From assembly GCA_018003015.1 (NCBI GenBank), contig JAGNEZ010000001.1:202808-266807 (forward strand): 64,000 nt of DNA, read 5' to 3'. This DNA is from Phycisphaerae bacterium (GTDB taxonomy: Bacteria > Planctomycetota > Phycisphaerae > UBA1845 > PWPN01). The notes beneath the pieces were generated by a model. The model was given only the letters and a program-made list of their open reading frames with translations, was not told the DNA's origin and did not search any database. This document shows positions 19,470-52,944 of the stretch, piece by piece; position 1 is the stretch's first letter; every line of letters begins with the position of its first letter. The position numbers and the translations under genes are program-made.

Positions 19470-19775
19470 CGCCAAACGGCGATTGCCCAGCGAGGACCCC
19501 CCGGGGGCGAGTCCATCGGTCACTGTAAACACATGTAAAAAAGCTACTTACGTGAGATTCGGGGCCCCTCTTGGCGTTGGCTGGGCGAGAAACGCCCGTC
19601 CCGCTTCGTCACCCCCGATTCTCCTGCGACCCTACTCATCGCTCCGAATCCCCCGCCATCCGTCACGACCTTGCCGCCCTTGCCTCCCTGCAGCATCAAC
19701 ACAACTCGACGGCGACGGCCATGTGGCCCAGCAACCCCTTCTGCAGTATCCTCCCAATGGACCTCTGGAACTACG
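19470..19775. other. Intergenic region with AT-rich promoter candidate
   Basis: 306 bp between the esterase and the glycosidase. An AT-rich island near 19522-19555 (containing TGTAAACACATGTAAAAAAG) suggests an independent promoter for the downstream glycosidase gene. No gene or clear hairpin recognised. Confidence 0.35.
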
Positions 19776-23356: not shown

Positions 23357-23398
23357 CGATATGGCTCCCGTACAGACCGGAAACGGTTCATCGTTCGG

Positions 23399-24733: not shown

Positions 24734-24873
24734 GGTCATATCCCTCATCCCGAAGAGGAGGGGCTCCAGGACCGGCGTCGATGTGGCGGAACAGGTCGAG
24801 AGGACGGTTCCTTGAACGAGCCTGTAAACAGGAGCCCAAAAAAGAACCACAATTGCTTAAGTACGGAGTCGGC

Positions 24874-24895
24874 ATGTACGAAACATAGGGTACAT
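24874..24895. repeat. Inverted repeat ATGTAC-N10-GTACAT upstream of oxidoreductase gene
   Basis: Perfect 6-bp arms at 24874-24879 and 24890-24895 lie in an AT-richer stretch between the minus-strand oxidoreductase gene and the plus-strand receiver gene. Arms two helical turns apart are typical of dimeric repressor sites. Function is unproven and arms this short can arise by chance. Confidence 0.3.
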
Positions 24896-25013
24896 CCCCC
24901 GGTACTGTGCGGTCAAGCGTCCCGGGGGCCTTCCTCGGCCGCATGTCGAGGCAGGACAGACGATATCGAGGCGGAAAAGACGGGAACAGTGGCTCGATCG
25001 GGGGTCTCGATTC

Positions 25014-25598: not shown

Positions 25599-25739
25599 TT
25601 GAGTCCGGCTGCTAGCTGGTGCGTGTCGTTCACCCACATCTCTCTGTCGTCCCAAGCCGGCACGCACCAGCTTATCCGCTTTCCCCGCCCGTTTGCCCCG
25701 CCATTGACGCCTGAGGGACTCTTCGCCACGATATCCGGG

Positions 25740-29638: not shown

Positions 29639-32600
29639 TCAGTAGCCCAGGGACTTCAGGTGCGAGTCGAAGTCGGGTGGCACGGGGGCGATCGGTTTGT
29701 CGGCATCGTGGGCGGCGTAGCGGAGCATGTTGCGTAGCAGGCGTTCGGCGGTGGGATCCTGGCCAAGGGCCTGGCGGACGCGGAGGGCGTTCAGGATGAA
29801 GCGGCCCTGGCCGAGCTTGTAGACCGTCAGCATCAGTTCGGCGCAGTTGTAGCCCATTCCGGTTCGGAAGGCGCCGGCCACGGCCTCGTCGGGCGTGTCC
29901 TGACCGGTGTATCTGAGGTCAGGAATGATCTCGCGGTAGAAGACGTAGTCCATCAGGCCGGTTGGCAGGCCGTCGAAGATGGGGTGCCGCTTAGCCCACT
30001 CGTCGCGGATGTAGACCTGAGGGAAGCGGTACTCGCTGACCAAGCCCATTGAGCCCTTGTTAGCCAAGGGGAGCCAGCCGAGCGGATTGCCTTTCTTCTC
30101 AAACACGTCCAGGGCCAGGAACACGGCCGTAGAGCCGGCGGCTATTCTCTCGACCAGTTCGCGCCATGCCTGGGCATCGCCGGCGCCGGCGGGCACCGCG
30201 GGCACGAGGATGACTTCTCGCCTGGCCGGTTTGCCGGGGGCAAACGGATGCGTCTCGATGCCGTGGTTTCTGAGCCATTGGGCGAGTTCCCGGTCCTCAC
30301 CCCAGCGCGTGATGACGGTTTTGACGGTAGGCATATCGTGCGGATCGGTGACGTAGAACTCGACGGACTCGCCGGTGGCCGGGCCGCCCTTCAGGAGTCT
30401 CGCGACGAACCGGCACTTGCCCGACGGAGCGTCCACGGGCAATTCCTCGGAGAATACCGGGATTGCATAGGGTGGTTCGACGTTGCCGGTCTTCGCGGGA
30501 ATGTTGACGGTGATGTTGCGTTCGATGAGGCGCTCCTCACCGGGGCCCAGCACCTGGAGCAGGGCTGGGTAGTTGCCCGGCTGGAGCACGTCTTCGCTGG
30601 AGAGGACGGCCTCGAACTTCACCGTGTCCCCGCGATAGACACTGACGGGTTCGGTGAAAAGGCACCAGCGCAGGGGGGCGAAGACGTCGCACATGGCGTC
30701 GAAGGTTCCGAGTTTATGTTCGCGGAAGGCGGTGATCACGCCCTCGGAGTAGGCCTCGGCGGTGTCATGGGTGCCGGTCAGGTTGTAGCCGACGATGGCC
30801 GGATTGGACCGCAGGGCGTTGATGCCCATGGTGCGGAGGCCAGCCATCCTGGCGAGGCACTTGTCGAAGAAATCTTCCGGGCTCGGGAATGCCTCTCCGA
30901 GTTTCCACCGATTCCAGTCGGCCATGAACCTGGCGAGCATTTCCTGGTAGCTCTTCGCCCCGGGGTAGGATTCCTCGCCCAGAGCCTCGTAATGGCGGAG
31001 CATTCTCGGGAAATGCGTCCCGCTGCCCATGCCGTATTCGGCGAGCAGGAGGGGGCGGTCGATGTAGGCTACGGTTCGGAGTCGCTCGATCTCGAGTCTC
31101 CGGTGCGGTGATCTCGGATAGGTGTGCAGGTCGCCCAACACGTTTTCCCACTCGCTGGAGCCGGGGTTGCTGATGCCTCCGATGTTGGGAGCGTTGAGGA
31201 TCTCGCAGTTGGGATAGGCGGCGAAGGTCGTGGTGTCGGGCGACTGCCCGGGTGCGAGTGAGCCGTAGCACCAGGGGCCGTTGGGGTTGTGGGCGTTTGA
31301 GAAATCGGCGGCCAGGTCGAATCGGGCACCGCTGGACGACTGGATGGTTGCGTGGACTTCGGTGGTATCGGTCCAAGGTGCGAGCCCAGCCGCATCGGGG
31401 GCATAGCCTCCACCCCAGCCCACGATGAAGTCGAGGGTATCGCCGGCGGCGAGGTTGAGAGTGGCGGAGTGATTGCATTGGTCGCCCCAGCCACGGATAT
31501 TGATGAAACCCGCATAGATTGGTTTGCCCGCGTGGAGCACGTGGACGTCGGTCGTTGAGAAGCTTCCCGTTCCTCTGAATTGGGCGGAGACGGTGTAATC
31601 GCCAGCCGCGGGCGCGGTCCAGCGGGCGACGCTGTACTCACCTTTGGTGCCGGGATTCAATGACACGGACTTAGCCGGCCAGAGCGGAACGTGATAGATG
31701 GCGTAGGGTTTGGAGTTGAAGAGGACGTTAGGTTGAGTCTCTTTGGCGGGCTTCCAGAGCTCCAGGCCGTTGAGGTAGGCGGATACGGCGTCGAAGCGCC
31801 CGCTGCCCAGCATCACCACGCGGGTTTCATCAAGAGCTCGCAGGAGGGGCAGGGCCTTCACCGCCTGGCGGAAGACGGGACCCTCGCCGGTTTCGTTCAG
31901 GAGTCCCCAGATCACGATGGCGGGATGGTTCCGATCGCGGCGGGCCATAGAAGCGACCTGCCGGTCAAAGCGTTCGGCCATGTTTGGGGAATCATAGAAC
32001 ATCCACGAGCTCGGGTTTTCCTCGTAGACCAGGAGGCCGATCTCGTCGGCCATATGGAGCTGGTTGCGCAGGGCGACCCGGCCGATGAACCGGACCATAT
32101 TGAATCCCATGGCTTTGCAGCTGACCAGTTCGCTGCGTAGCACGCCCGGATCGCGCGGGAGGCAGTGTCCGACCGGCGCTTCGGCGGCCGTGTGCGAGGA
32201 GCGAAGGAAGATTCGCCGGCCGTTGAGGCGGAAGAAGCCGTTGTCGAACCTGAAATCCCTGAAGCCGCAGCGGGTGGAGGACTCGTTGAAGATGGGGGAG
32301 TCGGGCGTTGTCACTCGGACGGTAACGCGGTAGAGGATGGGATCGTTGAGATCCCACAGTCGCGGGTTGGGGACCTGGAGTTCGCCTTCGATCAGGGTGT
32401 CACCGGAGGGCGTTTCACGGGAGATCGTGATGGCGTCAAGCGTTTCACCGCTGGTGGCGGGGGAAACAGTGAACTCGATGTTGCACTTACGGGTGTTTGT
32501 TGTGGCGTTGCGGAGGTTGACCTGGGCGCGGATTCTGCCGGTTTTGGGATCGGCCCGGACGAAGAGATCCTCGACGCGGACTGCCGGCGTCAGCAGCAAC

Positions 32601-33139
32601 TCGACGCTGTCCATGATTCCGCCGGTCTGGGTGAAGGCTGCGCCGCCATGCGGTGTCTGACGAAATGTGAAGCCCTCGATTGGCGTGTCGCCGGGGAGGA
32701 GGACGCGCACGGCGAGGCGATTGTCTGATCCGGGCTTGACCACGGCCGTCACGTCGAAGATGAATGGAATCATGGCTCCCTCGTGCGAGCCGACGTGGGT
32801 TCCGTTGACCCAGACGTCGGCCAGGTAGTCCACATCCCAGAAGCGAAGCAGGTAGCGGCCATCGGGGCATGGATTGGCTGGCATCTCGAGACTGCGCCAG
32901 TACCAGAAGACGCCGCAGTAGCCCGGGAACGTATCGCCGATGAACCAGGGGATCCTCGCGGGCTTAGCTTCGGGGCGAGGCTGCTGCCACCACTTCTCGG
33001 CGACGCCGACATTCGTCGGATCGATGGCAAGTTGCCAGCCGTCGCCGTCGAGCGAGATGACCTGACTGGCGATCGACGTTGTACCGAAAGCGGAGGCGGT
33101 CAGTACGAGCCACAAAGCGATGGTTGTTGAGGGCCGCAC
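29639..33139 (-). CDS. Secreted GH2-family glycoside hydrolase (beta-galactosidase/glucuronidase-like) with internal insertion
   Basis: 1166 aa. The signal peptide is followed by the GH2 sugar-binding jelly roll (FWDVDYLADVWVNGTHVGSHEG, about 100-120), the immunoglobulin-like domain, and a TIM barrel. The acid/base is E416 in WGLLNETGEG and the probable nucleophile E701 in LLLAEYGMGSG. Between them, about residues 460-650, lies an extra beta-sandwich-like segment with GDYTVSAQFRGTG and AGDTLDFIVGWGG that looks like a carbohydrate-binding or lectin fold. C-terminal beta domains and a region resembling a ThuA/glutamine-amidotransferase-like fold follow. It is the last gene of the eight-gene glycan operon, 38 nt after the M23-like gene. 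Confidence 0.87.
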   Translation of the reverse strand: MRPSTTIALWLVLTASAFGTTSIASQVISLDGDGWQLAIDPTNVGVAEKWWQQPRPEAKPARIPWFIGDTFPGYCGVFWYWRSLEMPANPCPDGRYLLRFWDVDYLADVWVNGTHVGSHEGAMIPFIFDVTAVVKPGSDNRLAVRVLLPGDTPIEGFTFRQTPHGGAAFTQTGGIMDSVELLLTPAVRVEDLFVRADPKTGRIRAQVNLRNATTNTRKCNIEFTVSPATSGETLDAITISRETPSGDTLIEGELQVPNPRLWDLNDPILYRVTVRVTTPDSPIFNESSTRCGFRDFRFDNGFFRLNGRRIFLRSSHTAAEAPVGHCLPRDPGVLRSELVSCKAMGFNMVRFIGRVALRNQLHMADEIGLLVYEENPSSWMFYDSPNMAERFDRQVASMARRDRNHPAIVIWGLLNETGEGPVFRQAVKALPLLRALDETRVVMLGSGRFDAVSAYLNGLELWKPAKETQPNVLFNSKPYAIYHVPLWPAKSVSLNPGTKGEYSVARWTAPAAGDYTVSAQFRGTGSFSTTDVHVLHAGKPIYAGFINIRGWGDQCNHSATLNLAAGDTLDFIVGWGGGYAPDAAGLAPWTDTTEVHATIQSSSGARFDLAADFSNAHNPNGPWCYGSLAPGQSPDTTTFAAYPNCEILNAPNIGGISNPGSSEWENVLGDLHTYPRSPHRRLEIERLRTVAYIDRPLLLAEYGMGSGTHFPRMLRHYEALGEESYPGAKSYQEMLARFMADWNRWKLGEAFPSPEDFFDKCLARMAGLRTMGINALRSNPAIVGYNLTGTHDTAEAYSEGVITAFREHKLGTFDAMCDVFAPLRWCLFTEPVSVYRGDTVKFEAVLSSEDVLQPGNYPALLQVLGPGEERLIERNITVNIPAKTGNVEPPYAIPVFSEELPVDAPSGKCRFVARLLKGGPATGESVEFYVTDPHDMPTVKTVITRWGEDRELAQWLRNHGIETHPFAPGKPARREVILVPAVPAGAGDAQAWRELVERIAAGSTAVFLALDVFEKKGNPLGWLPLANKGSMGLVSEYRFPQVYIRDEWAKRHPIFDGLPTGLMDYVFYREIIPDLRYTGQDTPDEAVAGAFRTGMGYNCAELMLTVYKLGQGRFILNALRVRQALGQDPTAERLLRNMLRYAAHDADKPIAPVPPDFDSHLKSLGY

Positions 33140-36361: not shown

Positions 36362-36376
36362 GGCCAGTCTCTCCAC

Positions 36377-38461
36377 TTATTGAACCGGTCGATACACGAA
36401 AAGTGCGGCTGCAGGACGATCGCCCAGGTTCACGCGTAGGCCTTCGCCCATCAGCTTAGCGCCGGCCGACCTTTGCGTGCTGCCGGTATCGAGGTTCTCC
36501 ACGATGTAATCTGTCCCGGGGGCGAGTCCGTTCAACTGGAACGTCCGTGCGTCATCGTTGGCCTGAGCGCGCCGGAAGGCCTGCACGACGCCTTCGCCCT
36601 GGTCGGGCCGGTGATACTGCCAAGCCATCCACTCGCTGCCCGAGGCGCTGTAGGGGGTCAGCGGGTAATAATCGCCGTTGAGGATGTGGACGCGGAGACT
36701 GCACCACTGATCGAGCAGCTTACGGTGAAGATCGTAGTTGGCCTTCGGGGTGAGGTCCCAGCAGGAAGTGAAGCTGGGCCCCATCTGGCTACGGAAGATG
36801 TAGGGCAGGTCCTTGGGGTCGGAGTGCATGATGCCGGTGCCCCAGAAGGGAATCCAGTCGGCAAGTCCGTAGGTCTGGCACTGCTGGCCGACGGGCTCAC
36901 CCCAGGTATCGCTGCGTAGCAGGGGCACAGACCGGCGCAGCGTCTCCACGTCGTTCCGCCGGCCCCCGGAGGCGCAATTGTCGATAGGCATTTGCGGGTG
37001 CCGCCGGATGAGCTCGTCGTAGTAGGCGAGGAATCCGGTGACGTACTTGATCTCGGTGACGCCCTGACGGTCGGGTGGGTCGTTGGCCCGCCAGAAGATC
37101 AACGGCTCGATGTTGAAGTCATGGCGGTAGTAGTCGATCCCCTGCTCGCGGAGGACTCGGTCGGTGTTGTCCGTGACCCACTTGAGGGCCTCGGGATTCC
37201 CCAGATTAAGGACGGTACGGTTCTTGAGGGGCATGCCCTGGTTGATCTCGGCCTCGTGGCCGGGGGGGGCTTTGAGCAGCCATTCGGGATGATTTTCGAC
37301 GATCCAGTTACCCGGGCCGGGGTAGTAGTGTTCCGGCTCGAACCAGGCGATCAGCTTGATGTGGTTCTGATGGAGGTAGTTGCTCAGCGACTTGAGCCCC
37401 CTGGGGAACCTGACCGGATCGGGGTCATAGAGAGCGTTAAAGACATAGGTTTTGTCATCCAGTGCGAACCAGGACAGGTCGCACCACCAGTAGTCGTAGG
37501 CGATGTTCTCTTCCTGGTAGCGTTGGATCCAGGCTCGCTGGTTCTCTTCGGTGATGCCGAAGTAGCCGAACTGGTTGGCGTTGCAGACGTTGAGCTGAGG
37601 CGGCAGCCGCTTGCCGCCGGGTCGTGGTGAGTTGTGGGTGTTCATCCAGCGGCGCCAGAGGTTCTGGGCGCGTCGATGGTCGCTCTTCCAGGGTTCCAGG
37701 ACAACGAGTGGCGAGCGCAGCTCCTCGCCGGGCAGGAGCTTGAAGCGAGTGATTTCCTGGCCGGCGGTCACGTGCAGCGATTCAGCGTCGTCGCGAATGA
37801 AGGAAGCGGACCACTGGCCAGGCCAGCCGATGGCGATGACCCATCCCCCTTCTGGTGATTGGACGTTGAAGTAGGGAAACTCGGTGCTGCACGGCCGGCC
37901 GCCGTTGGGGGCGAAGCGTTTGGCCTGCCCGGGGGCGAGGGTGATTGGATCCGGCTTGTAGATATCCGCCCCGCCGTCACCGACGGTGCGATGTACGATG
38001 AACTCTCCTGCCGATGCTCGCTTGATGGTCAGGTCCAGGGCCATGACTTCCGAGATCAGGGGCGTGTCGTCCTGGCCGGCGTTCTCGAAGTACAATGTCC
38101 ACTCGATCATTGGCAAATCGGCGTAATCGACGACGACACACCGGACGCTGAGGTTGGTCTTGGGGTCGGTCCAGGTCAGGGTTTGCTGTGTTCGGGCATT
38201 GTCGAGTGTGCGGGTTTCGGCCTTCTTTGGCCACGCGGCCAGCAACTCCGCGGATGGCTGCCCGCCGTAGTTGAAGGAGAACGGCAGCCGGGGTGCCGAG
38301 GCCGAGAAGTACTGGTTGATCCATTGGCTCTTCGGCCGCATTTCGTCGGAGGTGGCGGGCTGGGGTGTCTGGCCGAGGGTGGTCCCGAACGCCGCCGCGA
38401 CCCACAGAGGGAGACACACAGCGATCGCTTTTCGAGTCAGCGGATTCGTCATTCGCGTCAT
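36377..38461 (-). CDS. Secreted GH36 alpha-galactosidase-like enzyme
   Basis: 694 aa. The signal peptide (AFGTTLGQ) is followed by an N-terminal beta-supersandwich (LPFSFNYGGQPSAELL onwards) and the GH36 barrel: IAYDYWWCDLSWF, HIKLIAWFEPEHYYPG, nucleophile Asp in GIDYYRHDFNIEPL, the CASGGRRNDVETLRR substrate loop and acid/base Asp in VPLLRSDTWG. The C-terminal beta domain ends FVYRPVQ. All catalytic motifs are intact. It is closely related to the enzymes at 43280 and 45844 (same loop, same RSD). Start at 38461 follows AAAGGACCAGAA. It lies 70 nt after the NPCBM-GH36 gene. Confidence 0.92.
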   Translation of the reverse strand: MTRMTNPLTRKAIAVCLPLWVAAAFGTTLGQTPQPATSDEMRPKSQWINQYFSASAPRLPFSFNYGGQPSAELLAAWPKKAETRTLDNARTQQTLTWTDPKTNLSVRCVVVDYADLPMIEWTLYFENAGQDDTPLISEVMALDLTIKRASAGEFIVHRTVGDGGADIYKPDPITLAPGQAKRFAPNGGRPCSTEFPYFNVQSPEGGWVIAIGWPGQWSASFIRDDAESLHVTAGQEITRFKLLPGEELRSPLVVLEPWKSDHRRAQNLWRRWMNTHNSPRPGGKRLPPQLNVCNANQFGYFGITEENQRAWIQRYQEENIAYDYWWCDLSWFALDDKTYVFNALYDPDPVRFPRGLKSLSNYLHQNHIKLIAWFEPEHYYPGPGNWIVENHPEWLLKAPPGHEAEINQGMPLKNRTVLNLGNPEALKWVTDNTDRVLREQGIDYYRHDFNIEPLIFWRANDPPDRQGVTEIKYVTGFLAYYDELIRRHPQMPIDNCASGGRRNDVETLRRSVPLLRSDTWGEPVGQQCQTYGLADWIPFWGTGIMHSDPKDLPYIFRSQMGPSFTSCWDLTPKANYDLHRKLLDQWCSLRVHILNGDYYPLTPYSASGSEWMAWQYHRPDQGEGVVQAFRRAQANDDARTFQLNGLAPGTDYIVENLDTGSTQRSAGAKLMGEGLRVNLGDRPAAALFVYRPVQ

Positions 38462-38531
38462 TTCTGGTCCTTTCGAGTCACGCATGGTCCACTGCAACGG
38501 TTCGGAAAGCAACTTGGGTTCGCGTTGCCGG

Positions 38532-41000
38532 CTACTGGCGCCGGAATCGCAGGACTTCGGATTCACCGCGGCCGAGGGGAATCGTCAGGCCGGCCAGTAA
38601 TTCCCGGCCGGCGAGGTTACGCACGTGACTGCCGTCCGTGTGGCTGAGCTTGTACTTCATGTCCGGCTCGATGCCGCAGAGCCGCACCTCCACCGACGCG
38701 TAGGCTGATTCTTGCGGCCGCAAGATCACGAGGAAGCCTTCACCGGTCGTCGGATCGTTGAACTGCCATCCGACCCACTGGGCGAGGTCGAAGGTCTGGG
38801 GGAGGAGCGGGTAGTAATCTCTGTTGAGCAGATGGCGCACGGTCTTGTAGGCGGTGATGGCCTGACGCACGCGATCGCGGGCTGGGGGGTCCAATCGAGT
38901 CCAATCACAGGCGAAGCCCAAGGGACCGGCGAAGAGGCTGTGCAACTCGAAGCAATTCGCCGAAGATGAGGCTGGGAGATTGGTGTTCAGCAGGACGCCG
39001 GGCAGGAATCGGTTGCCGCCTGTCTCTTGCGAGCGGGCCGCGGTCAAGTTGCCCGTTTCATCGCTTTTCCAGTAGGTGTGGGCGCGGCGCATCGTCTCGA
39101 GGTCGATCCGCCGGCCGCCGCTGGAACAGCTCTCGATGAGCAGATCGGGGTACTTGCCGCGGAGGCGATCGAACAGCTCGTACTCGCCTTCCAGGTAACG
39201 AATCTGGGTGAGGCCCCGCGTTTCAGGCTGGTCGGTGCGGTCCCAGCCGGCGAGCGGATCGAAGTTGTAGTCATAGCGGATCCATTGGACGTGTCCTTCG
39301 TCGATGAATCCGCACATCATGTGAAAGAGCCACTGGCGGGCTTCGGTGATTTCCATCTTGACGCGGTTGCCATCGACCCAGTCGGGATGTTCGCGGCAGA
39401 GCCGGGTGCCGGGCTCGGCACGGGCGGGTTCGAACCATAGCCCCAGCTTCATCCCCTTATCGGCGACGTACTTGCCGATCGGGGCCAGGCCGTTGGGGAA
39501 CTTGGCTCGATCCAGGATCCAGTTACCGACGCCGCCGGGAAAACCGCCTTCGAACCAGCCCGAGTCGATGCAGAAGTACTCCAGTCCGAGGTCTGCGGCG
39601 GCATCGGCCTGGCGCTTGAGCATATCCTCACTGACGGCGTTTTCGAAGGTGAACCAGTGATTCCACGAGACCGGCGGCAGCGGCTTCTTGTCCCCCAACA
39701 GGGCGACGTAGCGGTCGTAGAGAATGCGTCGCAAGGCGTTGGAGCCGGTCGGCGGATCGCCTCGATAGAGACCCAAGAGCACACTTGGCGAGAAGATCTT
39801 CTCGCCGGGCGGCAGAGCCAGACTCATGTTCGGCATTTCGATCGTGACTCTCGTGCCATGGGCTGCATCGGGGCGGAAATCTGCCTGCCACTGTCCCGAC
39901 CAGCCAATGCCGACGAAGAGGCCGGTCTGGGCGAGGCCATGGTGAAGCTGAAAGAAGGGAAGGTCCTTAGCGGAGGATCGGCCGCCTGCGGCCGACAGGG
40001 TGACAGGCGACGCGAGGTTCGACTCTGAAATCAGGAACGCCGGGGCCTCGCCGAGAGGCACGAAAGGGCCCGTCAGGCCCCCGGTGCTATGGATCAGTTG
40101 GAAGGAGCGGGCTTCGGAGAGCTGCAGATCGAGGGCGTAGACGCTCGTCAGCGGTTTGGCCGGTGTTTTGCCGCGGTTCTCGAAGAACCAGCGGAAATCC
40201 AAAGCATGGTGGTCCTTGAACACCTCGGCGTGCCAGGTAGCCGCCAGGCCGGTCGGCGATTCCAGCCAGGTGATCTCGTGAATACGGCTGTGCTGTGTTT
40301 CCACCGGCGGCTTGGTCGTTCGCGCCCAGTCCTTGAGCAGGACTCGCGAGGACTGGCCGCCGTAAGAAAACGACGCGGGGGGAGCGTTGGCACGAAGGGC
40401 TCTTACGAGGGCAACGGCGGCACTGAGCTGAAGGGTTTTGCCGCTCGCGTCGATCAGACGGGCATCGCCCCAATCGCTCTGGTCGTAGGAGATCCCATCG
40501 CCGGCGTCGGTTACGATCAGCTCCAGTTGCCGGACGTCAGCAATAGACACCTGAATGTGCTGGGGTGGCTGGCCGTAGCGGCAGACGGGTGTTCGAGCCA
40601 GCTCGCGGTTGTCACCCTTGACCACGAACACGGCGCTGGCCTTGTCGCGCCCGCGCGAGGTGTCGTCGTTGTGGTCGATGCCCACGTCGGCGGCGAATGT
40701 CTCCATCGGCGATTCGATCTGGAAAACGACGCGACCGTTGGCATGAGTCCCGAGGCCGTCCTTGTAAGTTTTTTCACCGATCCGCAGCGGCGTACGTGTG
40801 TGGCAGGAGGCAGCCACCGTCAATGTGCCGTAGTCCTGAACGGCACTGACCATCCACACAGGCAGCGGCAAGTCGGACTGCTCCGACGGCAAGCCGATGC
40901 TCGACAGGAAGTGGTTGAAGTCGCCTGATTCATCGGCCAAGGCCAGGGCGTGATGTCCTGCAAGACACGCCAAGGAGACGGCGATCACACGAGTCATCAT
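38532..41000 (-). CDS. Secreted NPCBM-GH36 alpha-galactosidase
   Basis: 822 aa. Signal peptide, then an NPCBM/NEW2-type carbohydrate-binding domain (about 45-185: GEKTYKDGLGTHANGRVVF, AADVGIDHNDDTS, DAGDGISYDQSDWGDARL). The GH36 supersandwich starts at ASFSYGGQSSRVLL. Barrel motifs: LEYFCIDSGWFEGGFPGGVG, MKLGLWFEPARAEPGT, nucleophile Asp in WIRYDYNFDPLAG, IESCSSGGRRIDLETMRR and acid/base Asp in TYWKSDETG. This is the most canonical GH36 of the cluster. Start follows AAAGGGAG. It should release terminal alpha-galactose; the NPCBM may target galacto-oligosaccharide. It lies 28 nt after the upstream gene. Confidence 0.94.
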   Translation of the reverse strand: MMTRVIAVSLACLAGHHALALADESGDFNHFLSSIGLPSEQSDLPLPVWMVSAVQDYGTLTVAASCHTRTPLRIGEKTYKDGLGTHANGRVVFQIESPMETFAADVGIDHNDDTSRGRDKASAVFVVKGDNRELARTPVCRYGQPPQHIQVSIADVRQLELIVTDAGDGISYDQSDWGDARLIDASGKTLQLSAAVALVRALRANAPPASFSYGGQSSRVLLKDWARTTKPPVETQHSRIHEITWLESPTGLAATWHAEVFKDHHALDFRWFFENRGKTPAKPLTSVYALDLQLSEARSFQLIHSTGGLTGPFVPLGEAPAFLISESNLASPVTLSAAGGRSSAKDLPFFQLHHGLAQTGLFVGIGWSGQWQADFRPDAAHGTRVTIEMPNMSLALPPGEKIFSPSVLLGLYRGDPPTGSNALRRILYDRYVALLGDKKPLPPVSWNHWFTFENAVSEDMLKRQADAAADLGLEYFCIDSGWFEGGFPGGVGNWILDRAKFPNGLAPIGKYVADKGMKLGLWFEPARAEPGTRLCREHPDWVDGNRVKMEITEARQWLFHMMCGFIDEGHVQWIRYDYNFDPLAGWDRTDQPETRGLTQIRYLEGEYELFDRLRGKYPDLLIESCSSGGRRIDLETMRRAHTYWKSDETGNLTAARSQETGGNRFLPGVLLNTNLPASSSANCFELHSLFAGPLGFACDWTRLDPPARDRVRQAITAYKTVRHLLNRDYYPLLPQTFDLAQWVGWQFNDPTTGEGFLVILRPQESAYASVEVRLCGIEPDMKYKLSHTDGSHVRNLAGRELLAGLTIPLGRGESEVLRFRRQ

Positions 41001-41028
41001 ATGCGGCTCCCTTTCGAAAGCTTGACAA

Positions 41029-43221
41029 TCACCGACGCCCGCGCAGCTTCAGCAGCAGGTGTCCTCTGGTCGGGATTGACGCCTTCACGATCACCTCGTC
41101 GCCATCGTGCTGAGCCGGGGCACCTTCGACGTCGATGGGGCCGGCGGGCAGGCCGACCTGGTTAGGCCGGAATCGGATGCTGCGATCCACCGGTTTGTCG
41201 TCGAGATTGAAGGCATTGACGACCGCTTCGCCGAGATCGGGCAGGGTGTGGACGTGGATCATCTCGTCGAGGCCGTAGAAGACGCCCTGGGTATAGAACC
41301 GCTTGAGAGTCTTATATACCTGCATAGCCTTTTTCTGGGCTTCCCAGACCGGGCCGCCGGCCTTACCGCCGACGCCAAGGTGGCGGCAAGTACTGGCGAA
41401 CCACCAGAGGACCAAGGCGTTCTCGTTGTCGGGCTTGAGGCTGACGTGGAGGTAGAGCGGGATGCTGTAGGCCAGGTTGTAGTAATACAGGCTAACGGCC
41501 CGACGCGAGAGGAGATCGTCCATCGAGTTCCACATGAACTCGTGACCCCAGAGGCAGTCGAAGGAGTGGGGCTGGGCATAGCCGTAGTACGAAGGCGTGT
41601 AGTGGATTCCGCTCGGGCCGGTGATGAAGTCGTGCATTTCGATGAGCACGTTGGGGTACTTGGTTTTAACTCGCCGGGTGAGTTCGAGGAGGGCCCGGGC
41701 GTGGTCTTCGCGGGTCGAGGGGATCTGGTGGCCGTGGGTCTTGTCGTAACAGGGGCCGGAGAACTGGTTGCTGTCGAACATGAGGAAGGCGGCGCCGTTT
41801 CTGCAGACTTCGAGCAAGCGCTGCTCCTTGGTGTCCAGGAAGGCCGGTGAGGAGAGGCAGAGCAGGAAATTGGCGGGCTTGCCGTCCTTGTCGACGACCC
41901 GGGCATTGGGGGGACACACGTTGGGGTCGCCGTAGGTTGGCGGCACGCCGGCGAGCGAGCACCACAGGGAGACCGCTTTCAGGCCGTAGTCCTCGCGGAT
42001 CATTCTGACGAATGAGGCCATTGGCCCAAGGCGATCCGTGTCCCAGATCTGTTCGCTGGACCCGACATCCCAGCCGGGATCGAGGTAGAGCGACTCGCAG
42101 CCCAACTCCTTGGCTTTGGCCGCCTCGCCTTTCATCAGATCGAGGCTGTAGAACTCGGCGAGGAGCTTCTTGGTCTGCTGCTTGAACTCCGGTCCGAAGA
42201 CCTCGGCCGGGGGGTGGTTCTTTAGTCGCTGCTCACAGAGCTCACAGGCCTTGAAGTAGTACTGGTTGTCGTAGAGCTCGTTCCAGTGGATGGGCGGGTT
42301 GTAGTCACGGGGTGTACGGCAGCCCTTGGCTTCGAGGTACCCGCGATAGGCGTAGAAGGCCTGCTGCCAGTCACCGATGACGGCCTGGAGTCGGGTTTCG
42401 CCGAAGCGGTAGGACTTGCCCGGTTCGAGGCGGGCGGCGGGTTCGGGATGTCCGTGTTTCCACCGGCCGGCGCCGCCGAATCGCAGGATGGTGTCGGTGC
42501 CGCGTTTTTCTGGTTCCATCAACGACCATTCCATGGAATGGGGGTTGTACTTAGCAAGGAGGAAGCTGGCCGAGCCGTGGCTCCATACCCAGCCTTCGGC
42601 GCCCCAGATGGGCGTGGGCGTTGGTGGTTCGGCCCAGCCGCCGTAGGTGATGCCGTGCTCGGCCACCTCGCGCAAGGGGAACTCCTGCATCTGGCCGTTG
42701 GTTTCGCGTCGATAGGGGATGGGGCAGAAGCGGATCTCGACGTCGGGCGACCAGGTTTCGCCTGCGCGGAGGAGTTTGGCGAAGCCGCACTTGAAGTCGG
42801 CGGTGGCCAGGGGGTTGTCGGTGGCATTGGTGACAGTGAGGTTCTCGAGGATCACGCCCGGCTGGTTAGCGGGTGCGGTGAAGGCCTGCTCGATCTGGAG
42901 TGGGCCGAGTTGGCCCTTGAGAGTGACAGACTGGCTGCCGTCGTCGGATCTTGCGATGTCGGGGCTGCCGATCAGGATGGGGAACGCACCGCCGGGCCAG
43001 GAATAGTCCCGGTCGGCATAGACGATGCCGTTTTGCACGTTGCGGAGCGAACGCGGGTTGAGGCCGGGCCTAGTTTCGACGGTCAGCTGCAATGGGTCGT
43101 TGGTGAGCACCGCTCGTCCTTGACCGGCATCCCAGGTGACGGTCGGTTCGGCGAGAGCCGGCGTGGTCGACGTGAACACCAGCAGCAGCACGGCCCGGCA
43201 GCAGATCCATGAAGGCGTCAT
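41029..43221 (-). CDS. Secreted glycoside hydrolase, distant GH36/melibiase-like
   Basis: 730 aa. The signal peptide (TTPALAE) is followed by a beta-sandwich and barrel: IHWNELYDNQYYF, LGCESLYLDPGWDVGSSE, YGLKAVSLWCSLAGVPPTYG, and AAFLMFDSNQFSGPC, where the Asp after FLMF is the probable nucleophile. Next come VLIEMHDFITGPSG and CLWGHEFMWNSMDD. The CxSGGRxD loop and the RSD acid/base of its neighbours are absent, so it may belong to another melibiase-clan family with a different specificity. The C-terminal beta domain ends LLLKLRGRR. Start at 43221 has AGGAGGAGAGACA. Spacing to neighbours is 28 and 58 nt. Confidence 0.8.
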   Translation of the reverse strand: MTPSWICCRAVLLLVFTSTTPALAEPTVTWDAGQGRAVLTNDPLQLTVETRPGLNPRSLRNVQNGIVYADRDYSWPGGAFPILIGSPDIARSDDGSQSVTLKGQLGPLQIEQAFTAPANQPGVILENLTVTNATDNPLATADFKCGFAKLLRAGETWSPDVEIRFCPIPYRRETNGQMQEFPLREVAEHGITYGGWAEPPTPTPIWGAEGWVWSHGSASFLLAKYNPHSMEWSLMEPEKRGTDTILRFGGAGRWKHGHPEPAARLEPGKSYRFGETRLQAVIGDWQQAFYAYRGYLEAKGCRTPRDYNPPIHWNELYDNQYYFKACELCEQRLKNHPPAEVFGPEFKQQTKKLLAEFYSLDLMKGEAAKAKELGCESLYLDPGWDVGSSEQIWDTDRLGPMASFVRMIREDYGLKAVSLWCSLAGVPPTYGDPNVCPPNARVVDKDGKPANFLLCLSSPAFLDTKEQRLLEVCRNGAAFLMFDSNQFSGPCYDKTHGHQIPSTREDHARALLELTRRVKTKYPNVLIEMHDFITGPSGIHYTPSYYGYAQPHSFDCLWGHEFMWNSMDDLLSRRAVSLYYYNLAYSIPLYLHVSLKPDNENALVLWWFASTCRHLGVGGKAGGPVWEAQKKAMQVYKTLKRFYTQGVFYGLDEMIHVHTLPDLGEAVVNAFNLDDKPVDRSIRFRPNQVGLPAGPIDVEGAPAQHDGDEVIVKASIPTRGHLLLKLRGRR

Positions 43222-43279
43222 TGTCTCTCCTCCTATCGCAGTTGAGGCCACGGGTAATCCCACAACGCCGTCGTGGGCC

Positions 43280-45808
43280 TCATGGCTGGCGACGATAGGT
43301 GAACAGCAGCGCGGTCTGCGGGTTCGCCGCGGTCACTTTCAGTCCGGTTTCGAGCAGCTCCTGGCCCTTGATCGCGCGCGGTTCGGCGCCGTCGATATCC
43401 TGGAACACGTAGCGGGCCTCAGGATCGAGTCCACGGAGCTTAAGGGCGATGGACGAATCCGGGCATGTTTTCCTGCGGAAGGCATGCACGACGCCCTCGC
43501 CGGCGTCGGGCAGGTCGAACTGGTACGCGGCCCACGCGTTGGCGTCCTTGCTGTAGGGCATCAGTGGCCAGTAGTCGCCGAGGTAGCACTTCTGGACCTG
43601 TTTGACCTGCCTGCGGATCTTGCGGGTCAGATCGTAATCCCAATCTGGTTTCCGGGTATCGATGCCGATGCCGACGATCGGCCCCATCATGACGCTGCGA
43701 GCCCAATACAGATCGATGTGCTCGAATCCGGAGCCGTGATAGGGCATCCAGAGACTGATGCCGTGGATGTGGTTCTGCTGGCTGAGCACGTCATAGTTGG
43801 GATCTTTGGGGTTGCCGGCGTAATCGCTTCGCAGGATCGGCACGGCCCGGCGAAGCGTTTCGAGATCGTTGCGCCGGCCTCCGGACGCGCACGAGTCGAT
43901 CCACAGTTTCGGATGCCGCTTGATCAACTCGTCCCAGAAGGCCAGATAACCTTCGACGTGCCGGATTTCCTCGATGCCCTGCCGATCCTCGGCGTCGGCG
44001 GCTCGCCAGTACAGCAGCGGGTCGATATTGAAGTCCTGCCGGTAGAAGTCGATGCCCTCGGAGGTGAGGAGTTGATCGACGCGATCGGTGATCCACAGGC
44101 GGAAGTACGGATCGCCGATCTTCATCAGTCCCCCGCCGGGGCCGCCGTAACACCATCCCGGGTGGTTCTGAGTCAGCCAGGTACCGGCGGCCGCCCTTTC
44201 GGGCTCGAACCAGACGATCTGTTTGACGCCGTGGGCATGATGCCAGTCGCTGGCCTGCCGGAGGCCCTTGGGCCAACGGGTCCTGTCGACTTCCCAGGTA
44301 CCCACGTTCCACCAGCCGTCGCCACAGGGATACCAGCCGGCGTCCTGGTTCCAGTAGTCAGGAAGGAGGTCTTCCCTGGCGTAGCTCTCGAAGAACTGCA
44401 GTTCGGTGGCGGCGTCGGTCTTGAGGCCGGGATAGGAGTTGCCCGTGCAGCCGTAGATGAATGGCTGGAGTACCTTGCCGTCGTGCCGGGGCACGTTGCA
44501 TTCCATCATCCATGACCGCCAGACGTTCTGCGATCGGATCCAATCGCCCTTGTAGAACTGCAGGACGGCCATCGGGCTACGGACTTCCTCGCCGGGGTGC
44601 AAGCGGAAGGAGGTCGCCTCCTGGCCGCCGGTGACGCGGAGGCTGTTGCCGTGGTCGCGGGTAAACTGCGCGGCCCACTGGCCGGACCAGCCGATGACCG
44701 CGATCACGCCGCTGTTCCTGCCTGTCTCGATATTGAAATAGGGCAGATGCGTATTGGTCGGGCGGCCGCCGGCGGTGTTGACGCGTTGGGCGGCTTTCGG
44801 CCCCAGCCGGACTTCGAGCGGCTCGTAGTCGTTGGGCTGACAGGGGCTACCCACGGCGTAGTGCAGCAGGAACTCGCCGTCCTCACCGCGCTCGAAGCGG
44901 GAATCGAGCGGGAGGATCCCCTCGATGATCGGCGTGTCGGCCGAGCCGGTGTTCTTGAAGGCAAGCGTCCATTCGACGGTTGGAAAACTGGCGTACTCTG
45001 TGATGCTGTGGCGTGCGACCAGACCGGTCTTCGGATCGGTGTAAGAGCGGACGCGGGTGGTTTTCCCGGGATCCGACGTGTCGCGATCTTCCCTGAAGGT
45101 CCAGGTGGGCAGCAACTGGTCGGAATGTTGCTGGCCGTAGGTGAAGGAGAAGGGCGGCACGGTACCGAGACGTTCGGCGGTCAGAGCGTCATACAGGGGG
45201 AGATCGGCGATGTAGACTTCCTTGCCGTCGGCCAGTGTGACCTTGGGGTCGCCCCAGACGCCTTGGTCGCTGCTGAGACCGTCGCCGGCGCATCCCACCG
45301 AGAGGATGAACTCCTGGGCCCCGTCCAGCTCCGCGGTGACGAACTTGCCCGCTTCGCCGCGGTGCATGACCGGAGACGAGACAAGCCGCTTCTCGCCGAC
45401 GTCGACAGAGAAGATGACGCTACCGCCCTGGGAAGCGGCGTTGGTGAGAATACCGACCACCGCCGCGAAGGATCTAGCCGGTCCGGGCAGACACACTCGC
45501 ACGCGGCCGGGGGCGTGGCAGAAGAGGCCGTGTTCGAACTTCTGGTCGGCGATCTGCATGGGCAGGGTGGGAAGCTGGTTGCAGAACGTTGGGCCCAGAC
45601 TGGTCCAGGCGGTCAGGCCGGGCTGGGACCGCTTCGCTGATTCAGGCGCCGGCGACAGTCCAGACGATTGGGCGGGGAGGTGGGCGCGTACCCAAGCGTC
45701 GCGCTGGGCCATTTCCTCAACAGTGGGCCGTATTGCCCATGCATGGGAAACAAAGACGCCTGCGACGCAGAGGAGCGTAGCGATTCTCGAGCAACGGGGA
45801 GCCAACAT
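43280..45808 (-). CDS. Secreted NPCBM-GH36 alpha-galactosidase-like enzyme
   Basis: 842 aa. The signal peptide ends near SHAWA. An NPCBM-like domain follows (about 85-205: FEHGLFCHAPGRVRVCLPG, SVGCAGDGLSSDQGVWGDP), then the GH36 core: PFSFTYGQQHSDQLL, LLPDYWNQDAGWYPCGDGWW, VKQIVWFEPERAAAGTWL, nucleophile Asp in IDFYRQDFNIDPL, CASGGRRNDLETLRR and acid/base Asp in VPILRSDYAG. Start follows AAGGAGGCTCAAT. It is a paralogue of the enzymes at 36377 and 45844; the binding domain is the main difference. It lies 35 nt after the upstream gene. Confidence 0.93.
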   Translation of the reverse strand: MLAPRCSRIATLLCVAGVFVSHAWAIRPTVEEMAQRDAWVRAHLPAQSSGLSPAPESAKRSQPGLTAWTSLGPTFCNQLPTLPMQIADQKFEHGLFCHAPGRVRVCLPGPARSFAAVVGILTNAASQGGSVIFSVDVGEKRLVSSPVMHRGEAGKFVTAELDGAQEFILSVGCAGDGLSSDQGVWGDPKVTLADGKEVYIADLPLYDALTAERLGTVPPFSFTYGQQHSDQLLPTWTFREDRDTSDPGKTTRVRSYTDPKTGLVARHSITEYASFPTVEWTLAFKNTGSADTPIIEGILPLDSRFERGEDGEFLLHYAVGSPCQPNDYEPLEVRLGPKAAQRVNTAGGRPTNTHLPYFNIETGRNSGVIAVIGWSGQWAAQFTRDHGNSLRVTGGQEATSFRLHPGEEVRSPMAVLQFYKGDWIRSQNVWRSWMMECNVPRHDGKVLQPFIYGCTGNSYPGLKTDAATELQFFESYAREDLLPDYWNQDAGWYPCGDGWWNVGTWEVDRTRWPKGLRQASDWHHAHGVKQIVWFEPERAAAGTWLTQNHPGWCYGGPGGGLMKIGDPYFRLWITDRVDQLLTSEGIDFYRQDFNIDPLLYWRAADAEDRQGIEEIRHVEGYLAFWDELIKRHPKLWIDSCASGGRRNDLETLRRAVPILRSDYAGNPKDPNYDVLSQQNHIHGISLWMPYHGSGFEHIDLYWARSVMMGPIVGIGIDTRKPDWDYDLTRKIRRQVKQVQKCYLGDYWPLMPYSKDANAWAAYQFDLPDAGEGVVHAFRRKTCPDSSIALKLRGLDPEARYVFQDIDGAEPRAIKGQELLETGLKVTAANPQTALLFTYRRQP

Positions 45809-45843
45809 ATTGAGCCTCCTTCAGGAACTTTTAACCCCCTGGG

Positions 45844-47847
45844 TCAAGGTCGACGTTGATAGCGGTAGATCAGGGCTGCCGGCTGACTGGAGGCGGTGAC
45901 CTTGAGGCCATTTTCGAGCAGGTCCATGCCCGGCATCTGTTGGGGTTCGCCGCCGTCGAAGTTGGTGAGATCGTAGCGGGCCTCGGGATCGAGTCCGCGG
46001 AGCTTGAGCGTCGTTGATGGTTCCGGGCATGCCTCTCTGCGGAAAGCCTGCACGATCCCTCCGCCGGATTCGGGCCTATCGAATTGCCAGGCGATCCAGG
46101 CGGTCTTCTCGAGGCTGTACGCCGTCAGGGGGTAGAAGTCGGCCAGCAGGTACGGCTCGACCTTGCGGAACTCGGCGATCATCTTGTGGAGCAGCGCGTA
46201 GTCGAGGTCGGTTTTGCGGGTATCCCACCCGACGCGTGACGCGGGGAAGATACAGCTTCGGAACCAGTATGGATCGCTGGTTCCCTGCCCGGACCCGTGG
46301 TACGGAATCCACAGCGAGAGGCCGTAGGTTTGGCACTGCTGGGTAATCGTGTCGCCGTAAGCGTCGCTTCGCAGGAGAGGCACGCTTCGCCGGAGGGTTT
46401 CGAGATCGTTGCGCCGGCCGCCGCTTGCGCAGGAATCCAGCCAGAGTCTAGGATGACGACGGAGCAACTCGTCCCAGTAGGCCAGGTAGCCGACGACGTG
46501 CTTGATCTCGGTGACGCCCTGGCGGTCCTCGGAATCGTTGCCGCGCCAGAAGCCGAGCGGGTCGATGTTGAAGTCCTGGCGATAGACATCGACGCCTTCG
46601 CTGACGATGAGGCTGTCAATGCGTTCGACGACCCACTTCCAGGCCTCGGGTTTGCCGAGATTGACGAGCCCCCCGCCTTTACCGCCGAGCACCCAGTCGG
46701 GGTGGTTCTCGGCCATCCAAGTTCCCGCCCAGGCCCGCTCGGGCTCAAACCAGAGCACGAACTGCATGCCGTTGGCCCGGGCATGATCGGAGACTTCCCG
46801 TATGCCGTTCGGGAACCGTGTCTTGTCGACCTCCCAAGTGCCGGTGGTTTCGAACCAGTTGCCTTTGCCCGGGTACCAGCCAGCGTCGATGAAGTAGAAA
46901 TCCAGGTCAATCTTCTCGCGGATGTAGCCGTTCAGTACCGCGAGCTCGCTTGCCGCGTCAGGGTGGAGATCGACGCTCCAGCAGGCGCCGTAGTGTGTCG
47001 GGACGGGTTTGTCGTCTGGCCGGGGGATGTTGTGGGCGACCATCCAGTTTCGCCAGAGGTTCTGTCCGCGCATCCAGTCGCCCTGGTAGAATTGGAGGAC
47101 CACGAGCGGAGAGCGGAGCTGTTCGCCGGGCTGGAGTTTGAAGTGGGTCAGTTCCTGACCCGCGCGGATCCGTAGAGCGGTTTGGCCTTGGCGATCGAAC
47201 TGAGCGAGCCACTGGCCCGGCCAGCCGACGGCCACCATGAATCCGCCGCCTGGCGTGGCGACATTCCAGAACGGGAACTGGCCGTTGGTAGGCCGGCCGC
47301 CGCCTGGAGCCATACGCTTGGTGAAGCCCGGCCCCATGGTCTCGGCGTAGGGTTGGTAGCTGTCGGCCGCACACGTATCGCCCTTGATCGAATGAAGGGT
47401 GAATTCGCCGTCGCCGGAGCGAATGAAGCTCGCGTCAAGAGCCTGGATATTCTCCAGGATGGGGGAGTCGGCGGCGCCGGTGTTCTTGAAGGTCAGGACC
47501 CACTCGATGATCGGAAAGTCGCGGTACTCGACGGTCCGGCAGGTGAGCACCAGTCCTGTGGCCGCGTCGGTGTAGGTGATGGTGCGTTCGGTCCTGGCGT
47601 GGTCGAGTATGGTGGAGCGACGTTCGGCTTTCCAGGACTTGATGCACTCGGCCGCTGGCTTGCCGGCACAGGTGAAGGAGAACGGGGGCTCGGCCGATGG
47701 GATCTTCTCTCCATTGCCGAAGTGGGCAACGGCCCACTCGCGAGCGCGGGCGAGTTCGCCAGGGGTCACTTTCACCGCCCAACAGGGCGGCGGTGCAGAC
47801 ACAAGCACTGCAATCGACGCCAGAACCGCTGCTGAACGCGTGTGCAT
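45844..47847 (-). CDS. Secreted GH36 alpha-galactosidase-like enzyme, first gene of glycan operon
   Basis: 667 aa. The signal peptide ends PPCWA. GH36 features: PPFSFTCAGKPAAECI, IDLDFYFIDAGWYPGKGNWF, MQFVLWFEPERAWAGTWM, nucleophile Asp in VDVYRQDFNIDPLGFW, CASGGRRNDLETLRR and acid/base Asp in VPLLRSDAYGD. No NPCBM. A close paralogue of the downstream enzyme at 43280. Start follows GGAATGAGGTC. It heads a run of eight genes with gaps of 15-70 nt, so the operon promoter should lie in the 412-bp gap upstream. Confidence 0.92.
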   Translation of the reverse strand: MHTRSAAVLASIAVLVSAPPPCWAVKVTPGELARAREWAVAHFGNGEKIPSAEPPFSFTCAGKPAAECIKSWKAERRSTILDHARTERTITYTDAATGLVLTCRTVEYRDFPIIEWVLTFKNTGAADSPILENIQALDASFIRSGDGEFTLHSIKGDTCAADSYQPYAETMGPGFTKRMAPGGGRPTNGQFPFWNVATPGGGFMVAVGWPGQWLAQFDRQGQTALRIRAGQELTHFKLQPGEQLRSPLVVLQFYQGDWMRGQNLWRNWMVAHNIPRPDDKPVPTHYGACWSVDLHPDAASELAVLNGYIREKIDLDFYFIDAGWYPGKGNWFETTGTWEVDKTRFPNGIREVSDHARANGMQFVLWFEPERAWAGTWMAENHPDWVLGGKGGGLVNLGKPEAWKWVVERIDSLIVSEGVDVYRQDFNIDPLGFWRGNDSEDRQGVTEIKHVVGYLAYWDELLRRHPRLWLDSCASGGRRNDLETLRRSVPLLRSDAYGDTITQQCQTYGLSLWIPYHGSGQGTSDPYWFRSCIFPASRVGWDTRKTDLDYALLHKMIAEFRKVEPYLLADFYPLTAYSLEKTAWIAWQFDRPESGGGIVQAFRREACPEPSTTLKLRGLDPEARYDLTNFDGGEPQQMPGMDLLENGLKVTASSQPAALIYRYQRRP

Positions 47848-51389: not shown

Positions 51390-52547
51390 TCACAGATCCG
51401 TGGTCGAACCGAGGTCCTTCCAGGTGACGACCGAGGGCTCGTAGACGTTTTTCTTGGCGTTGACCATGGCCATGCGGGCCATGATGCACATCAGGCTGCA
51501 GACTCGGCCGGTCTCGACGTTGGCGTTGGGCAGCCGCTTGGCGTCGGTCTTGATGTTGAGCACGAAGTCGGCCAGTTCCTCGGGTGTGCCCCGATCCCAG
51601 GCCTTGCCGCTGGCCTCGCCGAGGTCCTTGTTCTTCTCGTCCCGTCCCCAGTATTTACCTGCGTTGAGGTCTACTGCGCCCTTCTCCCCGAACACGGTGA
51701 GGATTTCGGCGTCGTACTTACCGGGCAGCAGCCAGAGGTGGGTGTAGGAGAAGAGGGTCCCGTCGGCCCACTGGAAGGTGGTCGAGGAGTGGGTCTCGGA
51801 GAAGGAGGGGTTCTTGTCCTTCTGGCTAGAGGCCATAGCGACGCACCGAACTGGGGCGATGTCCTTCATAGCCCAGGCCATGACGTCGGTGTGGTGGCTA
51901 GCCTGCTCGATGAATCGGCCGCCGTCGCAGTCCGAGGGGGCCTCCGATGGGTCGCTGGACCAATGCCAGCCGCCCTGCATGAAGGTGACCTTACCTAGGA
52001 GGCCGTTGTGGATTTCCTTCATGCACTTGAGGTAGGTTGGATGGCAGCGACGCTGGGTACCGATCTGGTAGAACTTGCCCTTCCCCTTCCAGGCCTTGCG
52101 TGCGGCGTGAGTGAGGGCGTCGCAAGCGGGCACGTCCTTGTCCATGGGTTTCTCGGCGAAGCAATGATAGCCGGCCTCGAGGACGGGGATGGCGACCTCG
52201 GCGTGCTTGCAGATCTGGGTGATGCACATGACGCCGTCGATCTTTTCTTTCTCGAACATCTTGCGGAAGTCGAGATAGCCGTTGGGGTTGTCGCGTTTCC
52301 AGAAAGCCTTGGCCTTTTCCATGCGTTCGGGGATCAGGTCGCAGACGCCGACGACCTTGGCGTCGGGCACGCTGTTCATCATATGGTGCATGAGTCCGCT
52401 GCTGCGGCCGCCGCACCCGATCCAGCCGAGCTGGACTTTCTCGTTGGCCGGGAACCCGCGGGCGACTCCGCCGGAGGACAGGGCCGTGATTGTGGCGGCG
52501 GCGGCGGAACTGCGAACGAACTGGCGACGTGTGAGCTTGAGAGCCAT
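51390..52547 (-). CDS. Gfo/Idh/MocA-family oxidoreductase, exported
   Basis: 385 aa. Tat-type leader TRRQFVRSSAAAATITAL, NAD-binding motif VQLGWIGCGGRSSGL, family marker CFAEKPMDKDVPACDAL, and IGTQRRCHPTYL followed by GGRFIEQASHHTDVMAWAM. The C-terminal region (RLPNANVETGRVCSLMCIMAR) is typical of the large planctomycete subgroup that sits with sulfatases and glycosidases. Start at 52547 follows AGAAGGAGATCTTCG; an ATG 13 codons upstream is less likely. It is only distantly like the protein at 23399. Substrate is probably a sugar or sugar acid released by neighbouring hydrolases. Confidence 0.92.
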   Translation of the reverse strand: MALKLTRRQFVRSSAAAATITALSSGGVARGFPANEKVQLGWIGCGGRSSGLMHHMMNSVPDAKVVGVCDLIPERMEKAKAFWKRDNPNGYLDFRKMFEKEKIDGVMCITQICKHAEVAIPVLEAGYHCFAEKPMDKDVPACDALTHAARKAWKGKGKFYQIGTQRRCHPTYLKCMKEIHNGLLGKVTFMQGGWHWSSDPSEAPSDCDGGRFIEQASHHTDVMAWAMKDIAPVRCVAMASSQKDKNPSFSETHSSTTFQWADGTLFSYTHLWLLPGKYDAEILTVFGEKGAVDLNAGKYWGRDEKNKDLGEASGKAWDRGTPEELADFVLNIKTDAKRLPNANVETGRVCSLMCIMARMAMVNAKKNVYEPSVVTWKDLGSTTDL

Positions 52548-52944
52548 CGAAGATCTCCTTCTGACGAAAAGGCGAGGACGAGCCAAAACGGACTTCGTAC
52601 AACGAACGGGCCTATCGTAACCGGGCGGGGCGAGGGCGACAAGCGGTCTGTGGCTTGACGGGCGAGCACCGTGCGGATCTCGTCACCCGTCTCGATGGCG
52701 CCGATCCTGAGCGGATTGCCGGTCGGCTTTGGGTTTCATCCAAGAGTTCAAAATATGCGGATCGTCAACTATCGGAAGAGGGGACGGTCACCCCCCGAGT
52801 GATTGACGAGAAAGGGGGTGCCCGCACATCAGCTGAACGGACCCAATGCAGAAGAGACTGATGAGCCAAAGGGACGGGTGGTCGCTCTCCCTGCCGGGGG
52901 CGGTCACCAGGAGGAGCGGCCGTTTGAAATCCGGGGTACTCCAT
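52548..52944. other. Intergenic region upstream of the second oxidoreductase gene
   Basis: 397 bp without a supported gene. A slightly AT-rich stretch at 52746-52775 is the best promoter candidate for the minus-strand oxidoreductase gene. Plus-strand frames here lack ribosome sites and run antisense into the next gene. No repeats recognised. Confidence 0.35.

Follow-up and report, generated by a model that had tools for sequence, protein, structure and literature searches.

The α-galactosidase superfamily is in industrial and medical use, and the rules for the specificity of its members rest on few enzymes. The described systems closest to the locus treated here are the subgroup I enzymes of glycoside hydrolase family 36 (GH36), namely LaMel36A (2xn0), AgaA and AgaB (4fnr and 4fnq), RgAga (2yfn) and BoGal36A, together with TmGalA (1zy9), the retaining α-galactosidase BtGH97b (3a24 and 5e1q) and, at the level of fold, GH36 and GH27 of clan GH-D. 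In this study, a 64,000-nucleotide stretch of a Phycisphaerae bacterium genome (contig JAGNEZ010000001.1; hereafter, the window) was analyzed, in which five consecutive open reading frames (ORFs) on the minus strand, running from 47847 to 36377 just as the initial annotation had placed them, encode the following proteins.

45844..47847, minus strand: P0005, GH36 protein of 667 amino acids (aa) without a carbohydrate-binding module; Melibiase 91.4 bits, GH36C 29.4 bits; signal peptide judged by eye
43280..45808, minus strand: P0004, NPCBM-GH36 protein of 842 aa; NPCBM 74.4 bits, Melibiase 60.5 bits, GH36C 30.4 bits
41029..43263, minus strand: P0003, 744 aa as listed, from an unnamed family with a predicted GH36 fold; fold from AlphaFold2, no Pfam or NCBIfam family
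38532..41000, minus strand: P0002, NPCBM-GH36 protein of 822 aa; NPCBM 113.3 bits, Melibiase 141.3 bits; PDB 2xn0 at E 1.7e-44
36377..38566, minus strand: P0001, GH36 protein of 729 aa as listed; Melibiase 74.9 bits, GH36C 39.8 bits

Four of these proteins belong to GH36, and the fifth, P0003 (41029), is assigned on the basis of its structural model to an unnamed family that is distinct from GH36 but lies within the same superfamily. Overall, the locus is an ordinary kind of polysaccharide cluster, in which one enzyme family is without a name and a subgroup of GH36 is remodelled. We consider it probable that a secreted polysaccharide-trimming cluster has been assembled here from the α-galactosidase superfamily, comprising the four GH36 proteins, the unnamed GH36-fold protein and a GH97 protein, with GH2 and esterase-like proteins nearby, and that several of its members have changed sugar pockets; its substrate may be pectic. 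The unnamed family and the depth of divergence are the most solid parts of this picture, and the substrate is the least solid. A single genome carries many diverged members, at least one family of which is missed by current profile libraries, and the genes are intact, under selection and matched by orthologues in a related genome. A literature search over titles and abstract openings returned no description of the cluster or of the 41029 family.

The comparisons with published residues and motifs given below are based on excerpts of the cited papers. Within that scope, the four GH36 proteins resembled subgroup I in the catalytic Asp pair, the Melibiase domain and the CxxGxxR motif, with GxxLxxxG additionally found in P0001, P0004 and P0005 and absent from P0002. 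In contrast, they were distant from subgroup I in sequence, replaced several residues of the −1 pocket, carried signal peptides (by eye) and, in two cases, NPCBM domains, and formed a chromosomal block of four.

P0003 had no match in Pfam (E ≤ 1) or NCBIfam (E ≤ 0.1), and was devoid of the CxxGxxR and RxDxN/KWDxN motifs, with MFD[SG] and IEMHD present instead. Melibiase (PF02065) was not among the Pfam families matched by 38 members of the P0003 family; the commonest match, DUF6259, was touched by 4 of the 38 (best E 0.0011) and not by P0003 itself. Meanwhile, the AlphaFold2 model of P0003 (predicted local distance difference test score, pLDDT, 91.7) matched GH36 structures at a Foldseek E of 7.3e-26 with a template modelling (TM) score of about 0.6, and its superposition on GH36 entries of the PDB reached a Z of up to 27.4 (root-mean-square deviation 4.2, 588 residues aligned, 13% identity), covering nearly the full length. 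In the profile comparison by hhalign (E 1.1e-6, probability 91), D497 was placed on the GH36 nucleophile, and this residue was invariant in all 38 rows of the family alignment, where it is one of 29 invariant columns that also include HWNELY, DPGW and HGH. Because P0003 lacked a family match and the GH36 motifs while its fold and nucleophile aligned with those of GH36, we filed it as a distinct family with a GH36 fold rather than within GH36; relative to GH36 and GH27, its family is further set apart by its low identity, by DPGW in place of DDGW and by its own conserved motifs. The initial annotation's count of five superfamily enzymes thus stood, with four GH36 proteins by Pfam and 41029 by fold and profile, but 41029 is not a GH36 member. 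Its remark that 41029 lacks the usual loop understated the difference, given that both GH36 motifs are lacking and the family is another one, although the fold is GH36-like; unrelated origins in different families, which it had named as the contrary outcome, were found for 41029 alone, whose separate family still falls within the superfamily.

The likely start of P0003 is the ATG at 43221 (residue 15), and the ORF of the congener (genome G032) starts at the corresponding position. A pseudogene was rejected, the stop in the congener being upstream of this start and no stop following the ATG. One paralogue was found in the same genome (48% identity). A search with two peptide patterns alone gave at least 52 P0003-family loci in the named genome collection, distributed over Planctomycetota, Acidobacteria, Armatimonadetes, Paenibacillus, Hydrogenedentota and others, and a haloarchaeal plasmid also carries a family gene annotated as hypothetical. 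Three tandem family genes occur both at L042 (3501-12196) and at L021 (5052-11735), in one planctomycete metagenome-assembled genome (UR.bin216).

In the four remaining proteins, Melibiase exceeded its curated cut-off of 27 bits (60.5-141.3 bits). The NPCBM/NEW2 domain exceeded its cut-off in 38532 and 43280, in line with the two NPCBM genes annotated initially; these domains are related to PDB entries 2vmg/2vmh, which we take to be galactose-binding CBM51 modules. A profile of ten GH36 proteins of this genome matched LaMel36A (E 1.9e-62) and AgaB (E 1.4e-56). The Asp of its DFN/DYN motif aligned with the AgaB nucleophile D478 and that of its SD motif with the acid/base D548 (AgaB numbering counted from the printed alignment rows), and both residues were present in all ten rows, including the four from the window; in P0005, the alignment to AgaB and LaMel36A points to D425 as the putative nucleophile and D495 as the putative acid/base. 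The annotated sharing of motifs by 45844, 43280 and 36377 was exact for both RQDFNI/RHDFNI and D[SN]CASGGRRND, and 38532 carried the variants RYDYNF and CSSGGRRID. In the excerpt of PMC5094572, CxxGxxR, which lies in the barrel of all four proteins, is assigned to galactose recognition and GxxLxxxG to tetramer formation. For the four GH36 proteins, retaining α-galactosidase activity is putative in view of the pocket changes described next.

The −1 contacts listed for RgAga in the excerpt of PMC7688924 are W336, D366, W411, R443, K476 and W537. D366 and W411 were kept in all four window GH36 proteins, and K476 was replaced by Arg in all four. W537 was Leu in P0001, P0004 and P0005 and remained Trp in P0002, the region of R443 was not conserved in P0004 and P0005, and W336 was, by alignment, seemingly kept in P0002 only. 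Since galactose-contact residues were replaced in three of the proteins, plain α-galactosidase activity remains putative, and P0002 has, as judged from its sequence, the most galactosidase-like pocket of the four. The residue following D366, D367 in RgAga, was Ala in P0005 and P0004, Leu in P0001 and Ser in P0002. This second Asp of the DD pair presumably corresponds to the Asp that makes room for C-6 in GH27. A conserved Asp of GH27 is described as leaving room for C-6 of galactose, and its bulky replacement has been reported in GH27 β-L-arabinopyranosidases (excerpt of PMC5853685). A bulky residue at D367 as a mark of β-L-arabinopyranosidase activity was rejected, as P0001 (Leu) alone would fit, and with the NCBIfam model of the β-L-arabinopyranosidase BAD_1528 the four proteins scored 36-68 bits, far below the cut-off of 1100.

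Hints at the substrate were provided by P0003-family genes of other genomes. Polysaccharide lyase family 4 (PL4) enzymes are rhamnogalacturonan lyases. An N-terminal PL4 domain III was present in all seven long P0003-family proteins scanned, and tblastn located this domain also at L050 and L064. At three loci (L041, L043 and L048), the family gene is followed by a short-chain dehydrogenase/reductase (SDR) gene and a RhaT-family transporter gene, and at L042 both SDR and RhaT genes stand beside the three tandem family genes. RhaT-family ORFs were found at 4 of 52 P0003-family loci, three of them acidobacterial, many of the contigs being short; two RhaT proteins scanned against NCBIfam fell below the cut-offs for named L-rhamnose symporters. 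A GH36 array on C24 of the same genome and a GH36 pair in G016 sit with SDR, RhaT-like and DUF6786 genes, DUF6786 also occurs near family genes at L022 and L038, and two enzymes of the mandelate-racemase type are encoded close to the haloarchaeal copy. These neighbours suggested oxidation of a released and imported sugar, perhaps a deoxy sugar. Drawn as it is from neighbours in other genomes and not from the window, it may be weakly inferred that the substrate is pectic, a rhamnogalacturonan-like or other rhamnose-containing heteropolysaccharide. The RhaT-family ORF at L009 (7004-8278) also has a central segment that resembles Poly_export.

As for the origin of the block, its tandem order and shared motifs would be in keeping with recent duplications that are still diverging, as had been proposed initially, and tandem arrays do recur in this group: three GH36 genes each stand at C24 and at C128 of G005, and L021 and L042 each carry three genes of the P0003 family. 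The window paralogues, however, were only 27-51% identical, and even P0001, P0004 and P0005, described initially as close paralogues, only 43-51%, whereas the five proteins were 91.4-92.8% identical to their orthologues in the congener, where the five genes are all retained with their order unchanged. The ratio of nonsynonymous to synonymous substitution rates (dN/dS) against the congener was 0.14-0.19 for the five genes (0.19 for P0003), and all five are under purifying selection. In a midpoint-rooted tree of 50 rows, in which ten forks stayed open, P0001, P0004 and P0005 each paired with the congener orthologue only, and the three pairs lay inside a supported clade of 27 rows (100/100) that included rows from other genera, from a different family and from an acidobacterium; P0002 formed a separate branch, the deepest of the four. 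Branches measured 0.02-0.09 within the orthologue pairs and 0.75-1.26 above the three pairs, and the members of the C24 array each had their own sister in other genera. Given the contrast between orthologue and paralogue identities, the purifying selection and the deep splits, each with its own support, recent duplication was unsupported, and we regard it as highly improbable. Melibiase matches numbered 14 in this genome and 12 in the congener, against 1-7 in each of the remaining 11 family members and 19 in G005, which belongs to another family; across the order, 43 of 101 genomes searched had any match and 24 one over the cut-off. These counts indicated a lineage that is rich in the α-galactosidase fold, and not uniquely so.

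With respect to function, all members might instead be plain α-galactosidases that differ in linkage or chain length (galactomannan, raffinose-type or arabinogalactan substrates), and several α-galactosyl linkages are a possible reason for multiple enzymes, as had been put forward initially. Such an assignment agrees with the retained Asp pair and galactose-recognition motif of all four GH36 proteins, with the adjoining GH97 of α-galactosidase type and with the relationship of the NPCBM domains to 2vmg/2vmh, but is hard to reconcile with the altered K476, W537 and R443 positions and with the complete lack of GH36 motifs in 41029, and we consider it rather unlikely; if it held, the locus would be a good but ordinary carbohydrate-enzyme cluster. 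It is less likely still that 41029 shares the fold only and is non-catalytic or acts differently. That possibility is in keeping with its missing GH36 motifs, an acid/base that could not be assigned and the failure to find a characterized relative, whereas the 29 invariant columns including D497, its dN/dS and the fusion of its relatives to PL4 domain III speak against it.

In the favored explanation, that of a secreted polysaccharide-trimming cluster, the enzymes would be exported (signal peptides judged by eye) and each would act as a retaining exo-glycosidase with an Asp nucleophile and an Asp acid/base, removing terminal, axially linked sugars, and the members, far from being redundant, would have specialized on different linkages or sugars. 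Of these, P0002 and the GH97 protein would most likely release α-D-galactose or the look-alike β-L-arabinopyranose, and P0001, P0004, P0005 and P0003, with their changed −1 pockets, would more likely act on a related or modified sugar. More tentatively, 41029 might represent a new family of glycoside hydrolases, present in bacteria and haloarchaea, which cleaves a sugar from a rhamnogalacturonan-like polymer and, together with the remodelled GH36 proteins, feeds a RhaT-family importer and an SDR-dependent oxidative pathway. The GH-D fold would then have moved off galactose to another sugar, which may be 6-deoxy or modified at C6. Several points weigh against the favored explanation. To our knowledge, no activity has been reported for any close relative. 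The Ala and Ser found at D367 are small, unlike the bulky replacement in the GH27 β-L-arabinopyranosidases (excerpt of PMC5853685), and DAGW-type motifs occur in further GH36 rows of the same order, so that replacement of D367 is not necessarily a sign of a new sugar. P0003 is only remotely similar to the solved GH36 structures (13-16% identity), and its acid/base position was ambiguous in the GH36 profile alignment, the nearly invariant D569 being a candidate. A Pfam scan of 29 proteins from the window showed no RhaT, SDR or PL4 domain III, and the link to the substrate is therefore indirect. Finally, the GH97 enzyme is dispensable in the congener, since most of it has been lost there.

The superfamily block extends beyond the span annotated initially, with the GH97 gene 412 bp upstream of P0005; a further GH36-like gene stands apart from it at 19671. 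This brings the wider superfamily to seven members in the window, of which six form one run. The surrounding features were as follows.

54136..56289, minus strand: two-domain carbohydrate-esterase-like protein; GCE_fung 69.1 bits, DLH 52.2 bits, AXE1 43 bits; upstream end of the run
51390..52586, minus strand: GFO/IDH/MocA oxidoreductase; Pfam 53.3 bits
48260..50275, minus strand: GH97 protein of the retaining type; Pfam GH97 276.7 bits
34694..36376, minus strand: P0006, no Pfam family over cut-off; adjoins P0001
33178: M23-PKD protein, downstream of 34694 in the run
29639..33139, minus strand: GH2 protein, further downstream in the run; Pfam domains GH2, GH2 sugar-binding and GH2 TIM-barrel
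19671..22052, plus strand: GH36-like protein resembling TmGalA, located apart from the block; Pfam Melibiase weak at 19 bits

The GH97 protein gave its best PDB matches with the α-galactosidase entries 3a24 (E 4.5e-97) and 5e1q (E 4.3e-96). According to the excerpt of PMC2670981, the retaining half of GH97 is marked by (K/M)(I/V)DF and HG motifs; 48260 carries MVDF and LHG, motifs of the retaining half to which BtGH97b belongs, and differs from that enzyme in that its activity is putative, being read from sequence, and its gene largely deleted in the congener. There, two joined remnants (residues 1-23 and 200-318; L017 4644-5058) are left, residues 24-199 and 319-671 being lost, and L017 4500-5500 holds no Ns.

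Within the block, the genes from P0005 through P0004 and P0003 to P0002 are spaced by 35, 16 and 28 nt, as in an operon. P0002 and P0001 overlap by 35 nt as listed, and are separated by 70 nt if P0001 starts at the ATG at 38461, its likely start by inspection of start candidates; 34694 begins at the base directly after the stop of 36377. Scans for promoters (0 sites against a shuffle mean of 2.1) and terminators (10 against 9.6) did no better than shuffled sequence. A foreign origin judged by composition was rejected, the GC content being 62-65% throughout the window with no step at the block. P0006 had no PDB match, and its structural model, built from two sequences, reached a pLDDT of 32.4; its congener orthologue is 91% identical. 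Long ORFs that had no Pfam family over cut-off (34694-36376, 24672-26996, 22934-24649, 28148-29569 and 52945-54096) all had a counterpart in the congener. A KsgA-type rRNA dimethylase gene (50293-51165) lies within the carbohydrate run, and its dN/dS of 0.37 was the highest of nine genes compared. The protein at 19671-22052, which matched TmGalA in phmmer (1zy9, E 1.9e-17), has distant paralogues elsewhere in this genome, on C85 and C69.

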